64,000 nt of DNA from an uncultured Fodinibius sp. GTDB lineage: Bacteria; Bacteroidota; Rhodothermia; Balneolales; Balneolaceae. Location: positions 62,001 through 126,000 of the forward strand of contig CAJXMW010000005.1 of assembly GCA_913056235.1 (NCBI GenBank). Reading direction: 5' to 3'. The notes beneath the pieces were generated by a model that saw only the letters and a program-made list of their open reading frames with translations, did not search any database and was not told the origin of the DNA. The position numbers and the translations under genes were made by a program. Below, one piece after another: positions 29,487 to 47,742 of this stretch (position 1 is the stretch's first letter; the number at the start of each line of letters is the position of its first letter).

Positions 29487-30491
29487 ATGAAAAAAGCTAC
29501 AATTTTACTGACAACACTCATCATTTCATTAACGCTAAGTTTCACAGCTTGCGATGTCACTAACAGTTCCGATGACGACAACAGCGGCACGCCCGACCCG
29601 GTATCTCCCAGCGAGGCTAAAGAAGGCGAATGGACACTGGTAAAATCTACTACGGATAACACTATCCACGATGTTGCTGTTACATCCGAAGGTGCCTACG
29701 CTGTGGCCGAAGGAGGTATTCTGCTTGAGCGTACGCAAACCGAATGGACCAAAGTGGTCGATGGTGGTGTCTCAGGCAACGGTAACGATCTTTTGGGACT
29801 AGCCGTTACCGACAATGGTAATCGCCTGTGGCTGGTAGGATCCAGCGGAGCTGTAGGTGAATACGACATCCAAACCGGCAATCTCAATGATTATTCGCAG
29901 CCGATGGATGCTTCTAATAATTTCAATGACGTATCCGCTACCAATGAAGCAGATTCGGCCAATATTTATATTGCCGGCGATTCTGGCAAGATCTACTATA
30001 ACTTTGATGCCGGCGAAGAAGGAAAATGGCACAGCGTTACACCGGGCAACGGTTCGGCCATCAACGCCATTGGATTTGACGGCAAGAGACTTGGCCATAT
30101 CGTTGATGCCAATCAATCGGTGCAAAACACGCAGGACGGCAGCACCTGGAACAAAATGGGTATTGCCGACGCTGATGTTGACTTTCAAGGTATCGACAGC
30201 GACGGAACCGAAAATGTTTGGGTATCCGGCGGAAACGGTATGATCTTCCACTGGAACGGGTCAGAATGGAGCTCCAAAAGCATCAGCGAATCAACGTTGG
30301 TGAGCATTGAAGTAGCATCTGATGAAAGTGGATATACTGCCGGGGCAAATGCCGATATCGTCCGTTTTGATGGTTCCTCATGGACATCAGAAGAAACCCC
30401 AATCAGCGAAAACCTAAACGCCATAGTGCTTGAAACATCTTCCACTCCTGCCATTGCCGTTGGCGCTGGTGGAACCATCCTTGAGAAATAG
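29487..30491 (+). CDS. Lipoprotein with Asp-box / beta-propeller repeats
   Basis: This 334-residue protein has a lipoprotein-type signal peptide (lipid Cys22 in SFTAC) and an acidic Ser/Asp linker. About six repeats of the kind TIHDVAVTSEGAYAVAEGG, LGLAVTDNGNRLWLVGSSG and VWVSGGNGMIFHWNGSEW form a predicted beta-propeller, similar to YCF48/BNR-type proteins. The repeats are degenerate, and there is no sialidase or other catalytic motif. A role as an outer-membrane-anchored binding or assembly factor is a guess. It is a monocistronic gene bounded by terminators at 29308 and 30511. Confidence 0.78.
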   Translation: MKKATILLTTLIISLTLSFTACDVTNSSDDDNSGTPDPVSPSEAKEGEWTLVKSTTDNTIHDVAVTSEGAYAVAEGGILLERTQTEWTKVVDGGVSGNGNDLLGLAVTDNGNRLWLVGSSGAVGEYDIQTGNLNDYSQPMDASNNFNDVSATNEADSANIYIAGDSGKIYYNFDAGEEGKWHSVTPGNGSAINAIGFDGKRLGHIVDANQSVQNTQDGSTWNKMGIADADVDFQGIDSDGTENVWVSGGNGMIFHWNGSEWSSKSISESTLVSIEVASDESGYTAGANADIVRFDGSSWTSEETPISENLNAIVLETSSTPAIAVGAGGTILEK

Positions 30492-30510
30492 TTCTCATTC
30501 AACAGACGAA

Positions 30511-30540
30511 AGGCTCCTGCCAATCCGGTGGGGGCCTTTT
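30511..30540 (+). terminator. Intrinsic terminator after the propeller lipoprotein gene
   Basis: AGGCTCCTGCC pairs with GGTGGGGGCCT (11 bp including G-U pairs) around AATCC, followed by TTTTGTTTT. Confidence 0.8.
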
Positions 30541-30639
30541 GTTTTGGGAATGGTAATTCATCAGCTAGAGTTAGACAATATGAACGAGTTAAATTTTTGT
30601 AAGGGTAAAAATCGCTATGGATGATTCCATGAAATCCTG

Positions 30640-30647
30640 TATCTTTG
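30640..30647 (+). promoter_or_regulatory. Candidate -7 promoter element of the his operon
   Basis: TATCTTTG fits the Bacteroidota TAnnTTTG element. It ends only five bases before the start codon of the histidine-rich leader ORF, so a transcript from it would begin at or next to that AUG. No good TTTG lies 19-21 nt upstream. Confidence 0.45.
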
Positions 30648-30652
30648 GTCTG

Positions 30653-30715
30653 ATGCAAAAAGGCAATCTACATATCCATTCCCACCTCCATCACGGCGGT
30701 TCCCACCGTCGATAG
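30653..30715 (+). CDS. hisL: Histidine-rich leader peptide of the his operon
   Basis: An ATG at 30653 opens 20 codons ending with TAG. Six of the 20 residues are histidine, clustered at positions 7, 9, 11, 13, 14 and 18 (HIHSHLHH, then GGSH). The ORF ends 79 bases before hisG. A run of His codons in a short ORF just before hisG is the hallmark of his-operon attenuation, where ribosome stalling reports the level of charged tRNA-His. Two hairpins are visible: 30694-30711 (CGGCGGT with ACCGTCG) overlaps the last codons, and 30727-30740 (GCAGC with GCTGC) lies after the stop. Neither has a clear U-tract, so control could act on translation rather than termination. Confidence 0.82.
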   Translation: MQKGNLHIHSHLHHGGSHRR

Positions 30716-30794
30716 CATCACTACATGCAGCTAAGGCTGCCACGTCACTTCCTCATCCATCATTTTATTCCTAAATAATTTATAACTATTTGCT

Positions 30795-31676
30795 ATGCAA
30801 CGCACTGCTGATTCTGAAACCTCACTACGTATTGCCATTCAAAAGTCTGGTCGCCTGACCGACAAAACCATTGACCTACTAAAAGGCATTGGGCTCCGAT
30901 TTGATGACTACAAACGAAATCTGCTAGTTAAATGCCGTAACTTTGATGTAGAACTCCTGCTAATCCGCGATGATGATATCCCTGAATATGTGCAAGATGG
31001 CGTCTGCGATTTGGGATTTGTAGGCGCTAATGAAACACAAGAAAAAGGAGCGGACGTTACCGTACTTCGCGGGTTGGACTACGGGATTTGCCGCCTTTCA
31101 CTTGCAGCTCGTAAAAACGGGGATATCCAATCAGTCGAAGATTTTGAGGGCAAGTCAATAGCAACCAGTTACCCCAATATAACGCGGAACTATTTTAACG
31201 ACCGGAACATAAACGCAGATATTGTAACTATTTCCGGCGCTGTTGAAATTGCACCACGACTGGAAGTGGCCGATGCGATTTGTGATCTTGTCTCTACTGG
31301 TAACACGCTCAAGGCCAATGGACTCGAAGAGCTGGAAACGATCCTGGAATCCGAAACGCAACTTATCCGCACCAATAAAAAACTATCTACGGGCAAGAAA
31401 AAGCTAATTGATAAATTTTTGCAGCGTATGGACGGCCATCAGCAAGCCGAACGCAGTCGTTACATTATGATGAATGCACCCGAAGAGGCCGTACCTGAGA
31501 TCAAAGAAATTATCCCTTCACTTAAAAGTCCCACCGTAATGCCCCTGGCTGACAATGGAATGGTGGCTGTGCATACGGTAATCCCTATTGATGAGTTTTG
31601 GATTGTCATGGAGCGACTTAAAGAAGCCGGCGCAACCGGTATCGTCATTCTTCCCATCGAAAGCATGATACTGTAA
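30795..31676 (+). CDS. hisG: ATP phosphoribosyltransferase (long form)
   Basis: This 293-residue protein catalyses the first step of histidine synthesis, PRPP plus ATP to phosphoribosyl-ATP. It has the two periplasmic-binding-protein-like catalytic lobes, including GFVGANETQEKGADVTVLRG and the PRPP-binding segment DLVSTGNTLKANGL. A C-terminal ACT-like regulatory domain from about residue 215 binds histidine for feedback inhibition. The length therefore places it in the HisG-long group, which does not need HisZ. It starts 79 bases after the His-rich leader. Its TAA overlaps the hisD ATG by one base, so the two are translationally coupled. Confidence 0.97.
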   Translation: MQRTADSETSLRIAIQKSGRLTDKTIDLLKGIGLRFDDYKRNLLVKCRNFDVELLLIRDDDIPEYVQDGVCDLGFVGANETQEKGADVTVLRGLDYGICRLSLAARKNGDIQSVEDFEGKSIATSYPNITRNYFNDRNINADIVTISGAVEIAPRLEVADAICDLVSTGNTLKANGLEELETILESETQLIRTNKKLSTGKKKLIDKFLQRMDGHQQAERSRYIMMNAPEEAVPEIKEIIPSLKSPTVMPLADNGMVAVHTVIPIDEFWIVMERLKEAGATGIVILPIESMIL

Positions 31677-32977
31677 TGGAATCATACAATTATAACGCTC
31701 TTTCTGAGGAAGATCTCGACCAGCTTTGCCAGCGCCCGAAGATGGACTTTAAATCTATCTTTGGCGAAGTACAACCAATTATTGATCGGATTGAAAAAGA
31801 GGGAGACTCTGGCATACTGAAGTTTACTGAAAAATTTGACGGCGTCCGTCCGGATCCGCAAGTGATACATCCGGCAGAGCTTGACGTTGAACTGGATGAA
31901 GAAACAATGCAGCCCATCGACACCGCCTTCAAGAACATCTACCGCTTCCACAAGGCGCAGCTCCCGATGCCGCTGGAAGTTGAAACCATGCCCGGCGTGC
32001 AGTGCAAACGGGTAGCTCGTCCTATCGAACGGGTGGGACTCTATATACCGGGCGGTACAGCCATTCTACCCTCTACCCTGATGATGCTTGGCATTCCTGC
32101 CGCCCTGGCAGGGTGCAAAACCATTGTGGTTGCTACTCCGCCTCAGCAAGACGGCTCAATCGCTGATGAAATCCTATATATCGCTAAGAAAATTGGAGCC
32201 ACCCATCTCCTTAAAGCGGGGGGCGCACAGGCGGTAGCTGGCATGGCACTTGGCACCGGATCAGTACCGAAAGTGGACAAAATTTTTGGGCCCGGCAACC
32301 AGTACGTAACCGCTGCTAAGATGGTATTACAAAACAGTGAGGCCCAAATTGCGATCGATATGCCGGCCGGTCCATCGGAGGTATTGGTGATTGCGGATGA
32401 CTCTGCCAATCCCGAGTATGTAGCGGCCGATCTGTTATCCCAGGCCGAGCACGGTACCGACAGCCAGGTTGTATTGGTGGCCACCGAAGAGTTTAACTTC
32501 TCAGCATGCCAGAACGCCATCACCCAACAACTGGATGATTTGCCAAGAAAAGAAATGGCTGAAAAGGCTATCGACCAGAGTTTTTCGCTGATCGTCGATA
32601 ATTTAGAAGATGCATTCAAATTTTCGAATCGCTATGCGCCGGAGCACCTAATTGTACAATGTGATGATGCCGAACAGTGGCAAGAACACATTATGAATGC
32701 GGGATCAGTTTTCTTTGGTCACTGGACCCCTGAAAGTGCCGGCGATTATGCCTCAGGAACGAATCATACGTTGCCAACCTATGGCTATGCGCGCATGTTT
32801 AGCGGCGTGTCGGTGGACTCTTTTATCAAACAGATTACCATGCAGACGCTGTCAGAAAACGGGCTGCGAAATCTGGGTCCAACAATCGAGAAACTGGCCG
32901 AACTTGAAGGACTCGACGGCCACAAAAACGCCGTATCTATTCGAATCAAAGATCTAACCAACCAAACAGAGTCATGA
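31676..32977 (+). CDS. hisD: Histidinol dehydrogenase
   Basis: The 433-residue enzyme oxidises L-histidinol to L-histidine in two NAD-dependent steps with a zinc ion. Family segments visible are RVGLYIPGGTAILPSTLMML, KIFGPGNQYVTAAK, DMPAGPSEVLVIAD and LLSQAEHGTDSQ. The catalytic Glu-His pair is Glu323-His324 in YAPEHL. GDYASGTNHTLPT carries further zinc and substrate ligands. Length is normal. It overlaps hisG by one base and hisC by four (ATGA), as in a tight operon. Confidence 0.97.
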   Translation: MESYNYNALSEEDLDQLCQRPKMDFKSIFGEVQPIIDRIEKEGDSGILKFTEKFDGVRPDPQVIHPAELDVELDEETMQPIDTAFKNIYRFHKAQLPMPLEVETMPGVQCKRVARPIERVGLYIPGGTAILPSTLMMLGIPAALAGCKTIVVATPPQQDGSIADEILYIAKKIGATHLLKAGGAQAVAGMALGTGSVPKVDKIFGPGNQYVTAAKMVLQNSEAQIAIDMPAGPSEVLVIADDSANPEYVAADLLSQAEHGTDSQVVLVATEEFNFSACQNAITQQLDDLPRKEMAEKAIDQSFSLIVDNLEDAFKFSNRYAPEHLIVQCDDAEQWQEHIMNAGSVFFGHWTPESAGDYASGTNHTLPTYGYARMFSGVSVDSFIKQITMQTLSENGLRNLGPTIEKLAELEGLDGHKNAVSIRIKDLTNQTES

Positions 32978-34035
32978 GTACCACTTTCGATCTTGATCAA
33001 CTTGTTCGTCCCAATATCAGAGCATTGAAACCCTACCACAGTGCCCGCGCCGACTTTTCGGAGGGCCTGCTGCTCGACGCTAATGAGAACAGCCTGGGTT
33101 CTCCCTTCACCGAAGATGACGAACTGCATCGCTACCCAGATCCGTCCCAGCAGAAATTGCGCAATCTCATCGCTCAATGGCGTGGTGTTCGGCAGGAAAA
33201 TGTGTTTGTGGGCGTAGGCAGTGATGAAGGTATTGATCTGCTATACCGCATCTTTTGTCAGCCGGGCCAAGACCGTATTTTAACCACACCGCCCACATAC
33301 GGGATGTACAGCGTTTCGGCCAATATCCACGATATCAATATTGACGAAGTGTTGCTCGAGGAAGAGACGTTTCAACCCCGCGTGGATGCTACCCTTGATG
33401 CTGTAGCTCCAAACACCAAGATTCTGCTGCTTTGCTCCCCGAATAATCCCACCGGAAATTTGTTTGATGCCGAACGCATGACGGAACTGATCGAACAATT
33501 CCCAGGCATTGTAGTTGTGGATGAAGCCTATGTAGATTTCAGTAGTGAGGAAAGCTGGGCACAAAAAGTGGCTAAATATCCCAATTTGGTAGTCCTGCAA
33601 ACCATGTCGAAATCGTTTGGCTTGGCGGGCATCCGGCTGGGCATTACCTTTGCCAACGAAGAGATTATCAACTACATGATGAAGGTTAAAGCGCCATATA
33701 ACATCAACAAACTAACGGCCCAGAGAGCAGTTGAGGCATTCAAAAAACTGGATACCATCCAGTTTAATACTGAAGCCATCCGTAAGGAACGAAAGCAGTT
33801 GCGGGATAAGTTGAATGATCTGAAAGCAGTAGAGAAAGTGTATCCCAGCAACGCAAACTTCTTGCTGACCAAAATATCAGAAGCAAAAAAAGTATATCAG
33901 AAGTTGGCTGACAGAGGTATCATCGTGCGCTATCGCGGGGACGAACCGCTTTGCGACGGCTGCCTGCGTATCACGGTAGGTACGCCCGACGAAAACGAAC
34001 GTTTAATCTCAGCACTAAAAGAGGTAACAGCATGA
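32974..34035 (+). CDS. hisC: Histidinol-phosphate aminotransferase
   Basis: This 353-residue PLP enzyme of fold type I transfers an amino group to imidazole-acetol phosphate. The segments are typical: LLDANENSLG, RYPDPSQQKLR, GVGSDEGIDLLYRIF and LCSPNNPTGN. The PLP-binding Lys213 lies in TMSKSFGLAGIRLG. The C-terminal IIVRYRGDEPLCDGCLRITVGT contains the phosphate-binding Arg. It overlaps hisD and hisB by ATGA junctions at both ends. Confidence 0.96.
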   Translation: MSTTFDLDQLVRPNIRALKPYHSARADFSEGLLLDANENSLGSPFTEDDELHRYPDPSQQKLRNLIAQWRGVRQENVFVGVGSDEGIDLLYRIFCQPGQDRILTTPPTYGMYSVSANIHDINIDEVLLEEETFQPRVDATLDAVAPNTKILLLCSPNNPTGNLFDAERMTELIEQFPGIVVVDEAYVDFSSEESWAQKVAKYPNLVVLQTMSKSFGLAGIRLGITFANEEIINYMMKVKAPYNINKLTAQRAVEAFKKLDTIQFNTEAIRKERKQLRDKLNDLKAVEKVYPSNANFLLTKISEAKKVYQKLADRGIIVRYRGDEPLCDGCLRITVGTPDENERLISALKEVTA

Positions 34036-34922
34036 AAATTTGGATCTCGACAGACGCGCTTAAAGGTCATGATGAGACACTCCTGTGGAGCGGGGCTCTG
34101 TATGGACTCAAACGATTGCAAAGTTTGGGACACGAGATCACTTTTGATGCGGAAAAATTGTCAGAGCGCCAGCAACACTTGTTGGAAAATGATGAGATCG
34201 AATCGGCAGAATTTTCCAAAGAGGATGCCCATCTCCTGGTTACGGTAGAAGAATCATTTTTAAAGGCATATGATGCTGGCAACATCGAAATTGAACAAGC
34301 CTCGAACTGGAGCGAACTCAGCGATAGAATTTGCTTCCCCACGCGTGAAGCCCAACTAAGTCGTGAAACGGCTGAAACTGATATTTCAGTAAAGCTAAAC
34401 CTCGACGGTTCGGGCGAAGCCGACATTTCAACCGGACTTGGGTTCTTCGACCATATGCTGGAGCAGATTGCCCGGCACGGACTTATCGATCTGGAAATAA
34501 CCTGTGAGGGCGACCTGGAGGTAGATGAACATCACACCATCGAGGACGTAGCCATTACGCTTGGTGAAACGCTCAAAAAAGCAGTGGGTAAAAAGCTTGG
34601 AATTGAACGCTACAGCTTTACGTTGCCCATGGATGAAACACTGGCTAAGGTGGCCATCGATTTATCCGGACGGCCGTACCTCTCATTCGAAGGAACTTTC
34701 AAACGCGATATGGTTGGCGATTTTCCGACTGAGATGGTTGAACACTTTTTCTACTCGCTAGCCATACATTCAAGTTCTACCATTCATATATCATTTGAAG
34801 GCGATAACGACCATCACAAAATTGAAGCCTGTTTTAAAGGGTTTGCGCGATGCCTGCGCGCCGCCGTCAGCCGAAGTGAACGAAACTACAATATATTACC
34901 CAGCACCAAGGAGTCACTTTAA
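34032..34922 (+). CDS. hisB: Imidazoleglycerol-phosphate dehydratase with a degenerate N-terminal domain
   Basis: The 296-residue protein has an intact imidazoleglycerol-phosphate dehydratase from about residue 106 to the end: FFDHMLEQIARHG (His141), DEHHTIED (Glu166-His167-His168), FPTEMVEHFF and DNDHHKIEACFKGF, all metal ligands present. The first 105 residues are extra. In enterobacterial HisB that position holds a HAD-type histidinol-phosphatase of about 165 residues with a DxDGT motif. Here the domain is much shorter and the first strand reads KIWISTDALKG without the catalytic Asp pair. The joining segment SNWSELSDRI resembles the NWxxI linker of bifunctional HisB. So it is probably a decayed fusion with dehydratase activity only. 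The frame opens further upstream, but the ATGA overlap with hisC fixes the start at 34032. Confidence 0.93.
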   Translation: MKIWISTDALKGHDETLLWSGALYGLKRLQSLGHEITFDAEKLSERQQHLLENDEIESAEFSKEDAHLLVTVEESFLKAYDAGNIEIEQASNWSELSDRICFPTREAQLSRETAETDISVKLNLDGSGEADISTGLGFFDHMLEQIARHGLIDLEITCEGDLEVDEHHTIEDVAITLGETLKKAVGKKLGIERYSFTLPMDETLAKVAIDLSGRPYLSFEGTFKRDMVGDFPTEMVEHFFYSLAIHSSSTIHISFEGDNDHHKIEACFKGFARCLRAAVSRSERNYNILPSTKESL

Positions 34923-35528
34923 ATGATTGCAATTATCAATTACGATGCCGGCAACTTAGCGTCTGTTTCCAACGCGCTGAAACGGCTTGATGAACCCCAT
35001 ATCATCACAAATGAAATAGAGGAGCTAGATCAGGCTGAAGGTATTATTTTTCCCGGCGTTGGACATGCTGAGCCAGCTATGAAATCGCTTCAAGCAAACA
35101 AGTTGGATACGTGGCTGCAAAAAACAACTAAGCCTGTTCTTGGCATCTGCCTGGGAATGCAGCTTTTATTTGAATCTTCTGAAGAAGGCGATTCCAAAGG
35201 ACTGGGTATCATCCCGGGGCGACTCAAAAAGTTCAATTCCACCAAAGCTAAAGTTCCACACATGGGCTGGAATACCTTTAAGGATGTCCATCCCCACCCA
35301 CTTGTAGATTGCTTTAATACAGAGCAGTATTTCTATTTTGTACACAGTTACTACGCGCCGAAATGCGAACATACGATTGCCAGCTGCGATTACATTGAAG
35401 AGTTCTCGGCCGCGGTCTGCAAGGATAACTTCATGGGCGTTCAGTTCCATCCCGAAAAATCCGGGCAAGCTGGATCCCTGCTTCTGCAGAATTACCTGCA
35501 GTACGTTCAAGGTTCTAATCTGCATTAA
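34923..35528 (+). CDS. hisH: Imidazole glycerol phosphate synthase, glutamine amidotransferase subunit
   Basis: This 201-residue class I amidotransferase supplies ammonia to HisF. Its catalytic triad is visible: Cys76 in GICLGMQLLF, then His176 and Glu178 in VQFHPEKSG. The oxyanion region follows the pattern PGVGHAEPAMKSL. It starts directly after the hisB stop with no gap. Its partner hisF is not adjacent; it lies about 11 kb downstream at 46981, with the two groups separated by unrelated genes. Confidence 0.96.
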   Translation: MIAIINYDAGNLASVSNALKRLDEPHIITNEIEELDQAEGIIFPGVGHAEPAMKSLQANKLDTWLQKTTKPVLGICLGMQLLFESSEEGDSKGLGIIPGRLKKFNSTKAKVPHMGWNTFKDVHPHPLVDCFNTEQYFYFVHSYYAPKCEHTIASCDYIEEFSAAVCKDNFMGVQFHPEKSGQAGSLLLQNYLQYVQGSNLH

Positions 35529-38317: not shown

Positions 38318-39538
38318 ATGTTTCTCAAGGTAATTCAACTCGGCTGGAAAAACGTTTGGCGCAATCCCATGCGCAGCGCAGTCGTGATCATCGCTGTGTT
38401 GCTGGGTACCTGGGCTGGTATTTTCTTGTCTGGCTTCTTTGCCGGTATGGCACAGGGCTACCTCAATAATCAATTTAAACTTACCGTGGGACATATCGAG
38501 ATCGTCCATCCTCAATTTAAGGATCTCTATAGTCCCGAATATTACATCCCCAATTCTGATGACGTGATCCGTGAGCTTAGTCAACTTTCCTATGTCCAAA
38601 ATATCTCAACGGAAAGTGTTACCACTGGACTTGCGCAAAGTGCCCACAGCAATTACGGGGTTACGATGCACGGCATCCATGCCGACAGCAACAATGCAAT
38701 AGCTGATTACATCAAAGAAGGCACCATGCCAGGGCAATCTGATAAACGGAACCCGGTACTGATCGGACAAAAACTGGCCGAACGCCTGGATATTGAGATA
38801 GGCTCTCGGATGGTACTCAGCTTTCAGGACAAGAATGGTGAAATAACGGGCGGAGCATTCCGTGTGGCCGGTATCTTTGATTCATTCAGCGATCCCTATG
38901 ATGAGGGGAATGTGTTTATTGGTCTGGAGAATATGAACGAACTACTGGGACTCACCAATCAGGTTCACAACATCCAATTGGAACTGGCCGATTTTAGCCA
39001 AGCTTCACAGTACGCCAGTCAGCTACAAAACGAATATCCCAACCTACAGATCCAGACCTGGGGCAAAATTGCGCCCGAGCTACAGTACATGTACGATATG
39101 ACCGACCTGATGATGTATATCGTAATGGTCATTATCATCATCGCGCTCATATTCAGCATCATCAACACAATGCTTATGGCCGTGCTGGAGCGAACACGGG
39201 AGTTAGGCATGCTCCGGGCGGTGGGGATGAACAAGCCCCGCGTATTTTCCATGATCGTCTCAGAAACACTGTTTCTCACGATGGTGGGCGCACCCGTCGG
39301 GATGCTGCTCAGCTGGATCACCATTTCATACTTTGGTAATGTAGGGATCGACCTGAGTGCATTTTCCGCAGGCTTAAGTGCTTATGGATTTGGCACGGTG
39401 ATCTATCCTTCGCTGCCCAATATTTACTATCTAAACATCACCCTGATGATTGCTGCGGCAGCACTCTTATCAGCACTATATCCGGCCTGGAAAAGCCTGC
39501 AACTAAATCCCGTTGAAGCAATCAGAAAGTTTAACTGA
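38318..39538 (+). CDS. FtsX/LolE-type ABC transporter permease 2
   Basis: This 406-residue permease has the same architecture as its neighbour: IQLGWKNVWRNPMRSAVVI before TM1, a periplasmic domain with FAGMAQGYLNNQFKLTVGH, then three C-terminal spans (MYIVMVIIIIALIFSIINTM and onward) and the cytosolic ending LNPVEAIRKFN. The two differ in sequence, so they probably form a heterodimer like LolC-LolE rather than a MacB homodimer. The RELGMLRAVGMNKPRV coupling helix contacts the ATPase. It is part of the TetR-controlled cassette. Confidence 0.9.
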   Translation: MFLKVIQLGWKNVWRNPMRSAVVIIAVLLGTWAGIFLSGFFAGMAQGYLNNQFKLTVGHIEIVHPQFKDLYSPEYYIPNSDDVIRELSQLSYVQNISTESVTTGLAQSAHSNYGVTMHGIHADSNNAIADYIKEGTMPGQSDKRNPVLIGQKLAERLDIEIGSRMVLSFQDKNGEITGGAFRVAGIFDSFSDPYDEGNVFIGLENMNELLGLTNQVHNIQLELADFSQASQYASQLQNEYPNLQIQTWGKIAPELQYMYDMTDLMMYIVMVIIIIALIFSIINTMLMAVLERTRELGMLRAVGMNKPRVFSMIVSETLFLTMVGAPVGMLLSWITISYFGNVGIDLSAFSAGLSAYGFGTVIYPSLPNIYYLNITLMIAAAALLSALYPAWKSLQLNPVEAIRKFN

Positions 39539-44473: not shown

Positions 44474-45193
44474 ATGCGCGTTATCCCTGCTATTGATTTG
44501 CTGAACGGTCAAGTTGTACGCCTGCACAAAGGCGACTATGACCACGCCACCATCTATAATGATGATCCCATAGAAGAAGCCCGTAAATTCAAAGAGGCTG
44601 GTTTTAGCCACATCCATGTAGTTGATTTGAATGGAGCCAAGGAGGGAAAGTTCGTGAACCTGAAGCATATCAAGCAGATTATTCAAGAACTCGATCTGTC
44701 GGTACAGACCGGGGGCGGCATCCGCAGTTATGAAGATGCTTCCAAACTGCTGGATCAGGGTATTTCAAACATCATCTGTAGCTCTATGGCCGTAAAAAAC
44801 CAAGAGGAATGGTTGCAGGTACTCGACAACTATGGCGTTCACGCTATACTCGGGATGGACCTTAAAGATGGCAAAGTGGCTTACGGCGGCTGGCTGGAAA
44901 CTCTGGATCAAACACTTGAGGATTTTCTTGAGCCTATGATCGCGCGCGGTCTCTCGACCGTCCTATGCACTGATATTTCCAAAGACGGGACGCTCGAAGG
45001 GCCAAATCTACAGTTATATCGAAATTTATCTAAGCAGTTTGCAAACCTCAATTTTATTGCCTCGGGCGGGGTCTCCAGTGCCAGCGATTTGGAAACACTA
45101 TCCCATCAAAATATGTACGGCGTTGTGGTAGGACGTGCCTATTACGAAGACCAAATTTCACTTAAGGAGATGCTTCAGTACCACATCCCCTGA
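44474..45193 (+). CDS. hisA: Phosphoribosylformimino-5-aminoimidazole carboxamide ribotide isomerase
   Basis: This 239-residue beta/alpha-barrel enzyme catalyses the fourth step of histidine synthesis. The paired phosphate-binding sites and catalytic Asp residues are present: MRVIPAIDLLNGQVVRL (Asp8), QTGGGIRSYED, CTDISKDGTLEGPN (second Asp) and IASGGVSSASDL. The frame is open 39 codons further upstream, to an ATG at 44357, but conserved HisA sequence begins exactly at 44474, and the extension looks non-coding. It stands alone, separated from hisGDCBH and from hisF. Its end almost abuts the convergent cupin gene, with no terminator between. Confidence 0.94.
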   Translation: MRVIPAIDLLNGQVVRLHKGDYDHATIYNDDPIEEARKFKEAGFSHIHVVDLNGAKEGKFVNLKHIKQIIQELDLSVQTGGGIRSYEDASKLLDQGISNIICSSMAVKNQEEWLQVLDNYGVHAILGMDLKDGKVAYGGWLETLDQTLEDFLEPMIARGLSTVLCTDISKDGTLEGPNLQLYRNLSKQFANLNFIASGGVSSASDLETLSHQNMYGVVVGRAYYEDQISLKEMLQYHIP

Positions 45194-46980: not shown

Positions 46981-47742
46981 ATGATTGCAAAGCGCATCAT
47001 CCCGTGTTTAGACATCAAAGACGGACGAACAGTAAAGGGCGTTAATTTCGAGGGACTGCGGGATGCGGGAGATCCCGTGGAACTGGCGCGCCGCTACAGC
47101 GAAGAAGGTGCCGATGAACTTGTTTTCCTGGACATTACCGCTACCAAAGAAAAACGAAAAACATTAATCGATCTGGTCGAAAAGATTGCCCTGAAAATCG
47201 ATATCCCTTTCACTGTAGGCGGCGGAATCGGCAGCACCGATGAGATCGCAGATCTGCTGCATGCCGGGGCTGATAAAGTCTCGCTGAACAGCGCTATCGT
47301 TCGAAACCCCGATCTTATTAACAAGGCAGCCCAACAATTTGGATCGCAGTGTATCGTGGCCGCCGTGGATGCCAAACGAACCGGCGGCCAGTGGACGGTC
47401 TTTATTTCAGGAGGCTCCCAAAAAACTGGTAAAGATGTCCTACAGTGGATTAAAGAGGTGGAAAAACGGGGAGCAGGTGAAATTTTGTTGACCAGTATGG
47501 ATCAGGACGGTACGAAGGAAGGGTTCGATATTGAACTGCTGCAAAAAGTAAATGAATTTCTGACGATCCCCGTTATTGCCAGCGGAGGTGCCGGCACCAA
47601 GCAACATTGCATTGATGCTATCAAAAAAGGAAGAGCTGATGCGGTGTTGGCTGCCAGCATCTTTCACTTTGGTGAGATAGCAATCAGCGAGCTAAAAGAA
47701 GAATTGGAAAAAGCAGAAATAAACGTCCGAAAAACAATGTAA
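46981..47742 (+). CDS. hisF: Imidazole glycerol phosphate synthase, cyclase subunit
   Basis: This 253-residue beta/alpha-barrel uses ammonia from HisH to form imidazole glycerol phosphate and AICAR. Conserved segments: [21 protein letters not shown] with catalytic Asp11, [26 protein letters not shown], and [12 protein letters not shown] with the second catalytic Asp. [11 protein letters not shown] forms the last phosphate site. Length is normal. It is followed by hisIE after a gap filled by an inverted-repeat element. Its amidotransferase partner hisH is in the upstream his group. Confidence 0.97.

Follow-up and report, generated by a model that had tools for sequence, protein, structure and literature searches.

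In the his attenuator of enterobacteria (hisL; Rfam His_leader), a short His-rich open reading frame (ORF) lies before hisG, and ribosome stalling on it senses histidyl-tRNA. Leader peptides were long thought to be limited to Proteobacteria and Actinobacteria, and a His leader has been added for bacilli (PMC2965389). The transcriptome of Flavobacterium psychrophilum pointed strongly to leader-peptide attenuation ahead of amino-acid operons and showed a structured element before hisG (PMC9723704). A 2021 survey of his genes in the superphylum does not mention a leader (PMC8305728). Two other described systems combine cognate codons in a leader ORF with a pyrimidine-rich segment and lack a terminator hairpin; Rho has been proposed to act in them. 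These are the leaders of mycobacterial cys operons, put forward as a Rho-type arrangement without a terminator (PMC1262725), and tnaC of Escherichia coli. In Sinorhizobium meliloti, the trpL leader ORF begins at nucleotide one of the transcript (PMC7298713).

The his leader described here resembles each of these systems in part. It lies in the 64 kb stretch of DNA that was analysed (the window), which HisG searches of whole genomes and named contigs assign to Fodinibius/Aliifodinibius in the family Balneolaceae. As in hisL, a His-rich ORF stands before hisG, but the Balneolaceae leader has no Rfam match and no terminator with a U-tract, its transcript is predicted to be leaderless, and its hairpins are different. 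The mycobacterial Cys leaders serve another amino acid in another phylum, and conserved RNA stems of the kind found with the His leader are not described there. The tnaC leader differs in sensing a nascent peptide together with free Trp. The S. meliloti trpL leader shares the start at the transcript end that is predicted here, but it is a classical trp attenuator with a terminator and belongs to the Alphaproteobacteria. The features of the locus are as follows.

30640..30647, + strand: predicted promoter -7 box TATCTTTG, fitting the Bacteroidota consensus
30652..30653, + strand: predicted transcription start, on the first base of the leader start codon or 1 nt ahead of it, placed from the spacing to the -7 box
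30653..30715, + strand: His leader peptide ORF, MQKGNLHIHSHLHHGGSHRR*, supported by the His run kept across Balneolaceae and by a shuffle test
30694..30711, + strand: hairpin H1 in the last leader codons, a conserved core stem (core GGCGGU-UCCC-ACCGUC)
30713..30715, + strand: leader stop codon UAG
30727..30740, + strand: hairpin H2, separated from the stop codon by about 11 nt and lacking a U-tract, supported by covariation in Fodinibius
30742..30794, + strand: G-poor, C/U-rich, mostly unstructured spacer, a candidate Rho entry region by composition, its function being putative
30795..31676, + strand: hisG, ATP phosphoribosyltransferase, first gene of the operon (PF01634 and PF08029)
31676..32977, + strand: hisD (PF00815)
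32974..34035, + strand: probable hisC (PF00155 aminotransferase), between hisD and hisB
33951..34922, + strand: hisB (PF00475), start uncertain, the ORF overlapping hisC
34923..35528, + strand: probable hisH (PF00117), after hisB

The leader stands directly before a his operon, and its density of His codons is unlikely to be due to chance. It has 6 His among 20 codons, its centre reads HIHSHLHH, and 79 nt separate the end of its stop codon from the hisG ATG at 30795. An earlier note on this DNA had reported the leader with these coordinates and had named the gene downstream as hisG; the coordinates, His content and distance are exact on re-reading, and both Pfam matches agree with hisG. Among 2000 shuffles of 30653-30794 that preserve dinucleotides, only 3 have as many as 6 His within 12 codons. 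On both strands of the window, at least 5 His in 12 codons are found at four places only, two of which reach 6; the second of these is a stretch at about 39021-39270 within a coding region. Two upstream ATGs, at 30617 and 30629, could also open the reading frame, and the start at 30653 is preferred because the relatives and the promoter position support it. The operon has the order hisGDCBH, all on one strand. Homologues of hisA/hisF are found about 9-11 kb past it, at 44477-45157 and 46993-47679; these loci were searched as a possible second regulated his cluster, and they have no His leader. Upstream of the leader, an inverted repeat at 30510-30546 (AAGGCTCC...GGGGGCC, then TTTTGTTTT) is probably the terminator of the preceding gene (29487-30491). 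Its loop is too long for the terminator scan, which missed it.

The His run is conserved throughout the family, while the rest of the peptide is not. Balneolaceae are placed in Balneolota in NCBI usage and in Bacteroidota in GTDB. Loci were counted if they had the right orientation, an ordinary HisG and enough upstream sequence, and removal of duplicates left 70 distinct leaders. Each such locus has a His-rich ORF whose end lies 57-127 nt upstream of hisG. Carriers include Fodinibius sediminis, F. salsisoli, F. roseus, Gracilimonas mengyeensis, G. amylolytica, Rhodohalobacter sulfatireducens, R. halophilus, and Balneola sp. EhC07. All 70 leaders keep 4-8 His per 12 codons as the peptide diverges; the mean is 8.3 His codons per leader, with both CAT and CAC in use, and residues other than His vary freely except where they overlap H1. 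The leader is absent from three small-genome Balneolaceae (G015, G025, and G031), whose HisG is divergent (42-46% identity). The other families of Balneolales are mixed, with a leader in L086, L088, and L098-L100 and none in L089-L097 or L105. The locus thus has the marks of a ribosome-mediated attenuator, namely a short ORF rich in the operon's own amino acid whose cognate codons are kept in relatives. This comparison of hisG upstream regions, which the earlier note had suggested as a check, upholds the sensing part of its proposal of a his attenuation leader. The leader very probably senses the supply of histidyl-tRNA for the his operon.

The his leader transcript is probably leaderless, judging from the position of the promoter. 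The Bacteroidota -7 consensus is TAnnTTTG (PMC7366714), and all 70 leaders have a box of the TA..TT type ahead of their start codon, with a gap of 4-5 nt in 62 of them. Since the start codon was chosen by box score within 2-9 nt, the narrow peak in spacing is the evidence and the mere presence of a box is not. With the box 4-5 nt before the start codon, the transcript would begin at or next to that codon if the -7 box is placed as usual. The Trp leaders of Balneolales have nearly the same spacing, their start codons lying mostly 4-7 nt from the box, and the his leaders of other Bacteroidota have gaps of between 4 and about 33 nt. A sigma-70 promoter scan of 30400-30900 found nothing, as expected for Bacteroidota promoters.

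The Balneolaceae his leaders do not have the terminator hairpin with a U-tract before the first gene that defines a classical intrinsic attenuator. The earlier note had placed two hairpins at 30694-30711 and 30727-30740 and had remarked that they have no clear U-tracts; both are present there, and a scan of 30400-30900 for intrinsic terminators found none. A detector of hairpins followed by U-tracts was positive in 2 of 71 Balneolaceae his leaders and in 3 of 40 shuffled sequences, which is no more than chance. The same detector found a terminator of -15 to -24 kcal/mol in all 23 trpE leaders from this genome, Fodinibius and other Balneolales, and one of -8 kcal/mol or better in 32 of 43 hisG upstream regions from elsewhere in Bacteroidota. 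Most of the remaining regions outside Balneolaceae have no recognisable classical arrangement or no leader. An Rfam search of the entire window gave no match to His_leader (gathering score), to T-boxes or to other riboswitches. Overlapping alternative stems are visible by eye in some lineages, with no terminator present for them to exclude.

His leaders are found in most sampled families of Bacteroidota, as a rule together with a textbook terminator, so that the earlier note's restriction of his attenuation mainly to Gammaproteobacteria and a few other phyla is too narrow. These leaders (L106 and L131-L169) precede the same gene in the same place, have the same His run and belong to the same phylum, with the stop codon 70-160 nt before hisG. 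They mostly have a terminator of -12 to -24 kcal/mol with a U-tract, whereas the Balneolaceae leaders have none. The textbook terminators occur in L106, L107, L110, L131-L134, and most of L137-L169, with Ignavibacteria, Flavobacteriaceae, and numerous further families of Bacteroidota among them. L140, from another family of the class to which Balneolaceae belong, likewise combines a His leader and a strong terminator. Because L140 keeps both leader and terminator, the simplest history would be that the terminator was lost in the Balneolaceae line.

A rival explanation is classical attenuation in Balneolaceae through a degenerate or non-canonical terminator, either H2 or a stem enclosing the stop codon, that needs no U-tract. 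The sensor and the phylum are the same, and the classical layout is found in L140, the Ignavibacteria loci and Flavobacteriaceae. Against this, the stems in Balneolaceae have only 4-7 bp, and 69 of the 71 leaders have no U-tract; by comparison, trp leaders from this genome and its relatives retain hairpins of -15 to -24 kcal/mol with U-tracts. This explanation is therefore considered improbable.

Other RNA stems around the leader stop codon are conserved. In the window, H1 runs from C30694 to G30711 (stem CGGCGGU/ACCGUCG). Its core GGCGGU/ACCGUC is found in 12 Fodinibius genomes, with five of the six pairs invariant and the sixth broken in two genomes. In L005, the leader stop codon has shifted upstream into the H1 loop and the first His has become Tyr, and the stem is unchanged, which shows that the RNA stem is what is maintained in H1, not the peptide sequence. 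In H2, positions 30727-30731 pair with 30736-30740 (GCAGC/GCUGC). Across Fodinibius, both bases are substituted in two of its six pairs (UA, GC, AU, and CG), 93% of cells are paired, and the covariation score of 0.138 is never reached in 500 shuffles.

Outside Fodinibius, the leader stop codon sits in the loop of a conserved stem. This stem is typically GUGC/GCAC, and ACGCA/UGCGU, AUGCGC/GCGCAU, and CUGUGC/GCACAG also occur, with slightly outer stems of GGGCA/UGCCC, UGGAUA/UAUCCA, and AUGGC/GCCAU (the last identified by eye). The region before the stop codon pairs with its own downstream segment at a mean of -9.55 kcal/mol, compared with -7.42 for segments swapped between species and -5.96 for shuffled ones. 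None of 20000 permutations in the swap test was as low as the own pairing; relatedness inflates the significance of the swap and shuffle tests, and the variety of the stems is the direct evidence. In L078 and L080-L082, the stop codon is enclosed by a stem of 11-13 bp, located some 57-131 nt ahead of hisG, whose 5' arm is also used by the shorter GUGC/GCAC stem; the two could possibly form a two-state switch without a U-tract. Fodinibius, including this window, has H1 and H2 only and no stop-enclosing stem of the same form.

The spacer before hisG is poor in G. In the 60 nt before hisG, the median G content is 5% among the 70 Balneolaceae leaders, compared with about 13-15% before other genes of the window and the fetched loci, and C is raised to 25%; the composition of any single spacer stays within the range of other upstream regions. 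The spacer resembles a Rho entry site and could equally be an unstructured landing site for ribosomes, its composition being proof of neither. The genome encodes rho (PF07497 match at G000:C3:134966-135184, E 1.5e-31). A second, weaker match to the Rho RNA-binding domain (PF07497) is found at G000:C1:368378-368590, in an open frame of 405 aa.

The reading that we lean towards is a ribosome-sensed histidine attenuator without an intrinsic terminator, in which termination of the Rho type is the most likely output. For the leaderless start, the stalling, the direction of control, and the part of Rho as terminator, we infer the following course. Transcription would start at or next to the leader start codon, making the translated transcript a leaderless mRNA. 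Under a shortage of histidyl-tRNA, the ribosome would stall within the His run; the structure at and beyond the leader stop codon would then persist, and the operon would be transcribed. When histidine is plentiful, the ribosome would reach the stop codon, open the structure and leave. Its departure would expose the C/U-rich, G-poor spacer, and RNA polymerase would be stopped before hisG, with Rho as the most likely agent. Modelled openness of the spacer is 0.76 with the ribosome at the stop codon and 0.66 with the ribosome stalled or absent, which fits exposure of the spacer to Rho upon full translation of the leader. A stalled ribosome would cover little of the spacer, and the stems are assumed to keep Rho off under starvation. 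It is reasonably likely that the output is transcriptional and non-intrinsic; that Rho itself is the terminating factor has slightly less than an even chance.

Translational attenuation, in which access to the hisG start site would depend on where the ribosome stands in the leader, had been suggested by the earlier note and is now disfavoured. It would account for the absence of a terminator, and several Fodinibius folds pair AUAGCA at the leader stop with UGCUAU at the hisG start. However, modelled accessibility of hisG from -18 to +12 is 0.616 for the free RNA, 0.617 with a stalled ribosome, and 0.609 with the ribosome at the stop codon, and it shifts by more than 0.1 in only 1 of 70 leaders. 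Because the start site is equally open in all three states, a translational switch is unlikely. The pairing of stop codon and hisG start was dropped as a candidate. It is mostly one unvarying motif, it is not seen by eye in other genera, and it has the wrong sign, since starvation would close hisG.

Control of mRNA stability also has a low probability. The ribosome would then shield or expose the 5' end or an RNase site, with the hairpins as stabilisers. The U-rich, G-poor spacer would suit RNase cleavage, and pairing of the leaderless 5' end with the spacer could shield that end. Of three groups tested for such pairing of the first codons with the spacer, only Balneola/Gracilimonas supports it (p about 0.02); neither Fodinibius (p 0.11) nor the Rhodohalobacter-like set (p 0.32) does. 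A striking single pairing of this type, GUGAAUUC/GAAUUCAC, occurs in L025.

It is very unlikely that the leader has no regulatory role and is either a decayed attenuator relic, as the missing terminator might suggest, or a translated His-rich micropeptide. His-rich peptides can bind metals, and a metal-binding product could be imagined. The position before hisG, the divergence of residues other than His, the conserved promoter spacing, and the covarying hairpins argue instead for regulation in cis.

Ribosome-sensed His leaders are thus widespread in Bacteroidota, where they have hardly been described, and one family, Balneolaceae, appears to have kept the sensor and lost the terminator. No published description of the Balneolaceae case was found, and Bacteroidota his leaders may have been predicted earlier. 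We tentatively propose that an ancestral his attenuator of Bacteroidota still had an intrinsic terminator, that it became terminator-free in Balneolaceae, and that loading of Rho there may be decided by whether a 70S ribosome on the leaderless leader reaches or misses a stop codon held in a hairpin. Leader-peptide action without an intrinsic terminator, proposed for the mycobacterial Cys leaders but rarely tested, becomes testable in cultured strains such as Fodinibius roseus and Gracilimonas mengyeensis.

In the trp leaders of this genome and its relatives the terminators are intact, which makes these leaders a built-in control. The Balneolales Trp leaders are like the his leaders in their run of cognate codons and in the spacing of the -7 box, and unlike them in having a strong terminator in 23 of 23 cases. 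The regions upstream of ilvD, pheA, and the homoserine dehydrogenase gene have no consistent leader with a terminator and no consistent box-adjacent leader; this is a weak test, as the starts of pheA and hom are poorly placed. Trp leaders with the motif NWWWP and a strong terminator precede trpE in L171-L193, and in this genome one lies just upstream of 224251 on contig G000:C4.
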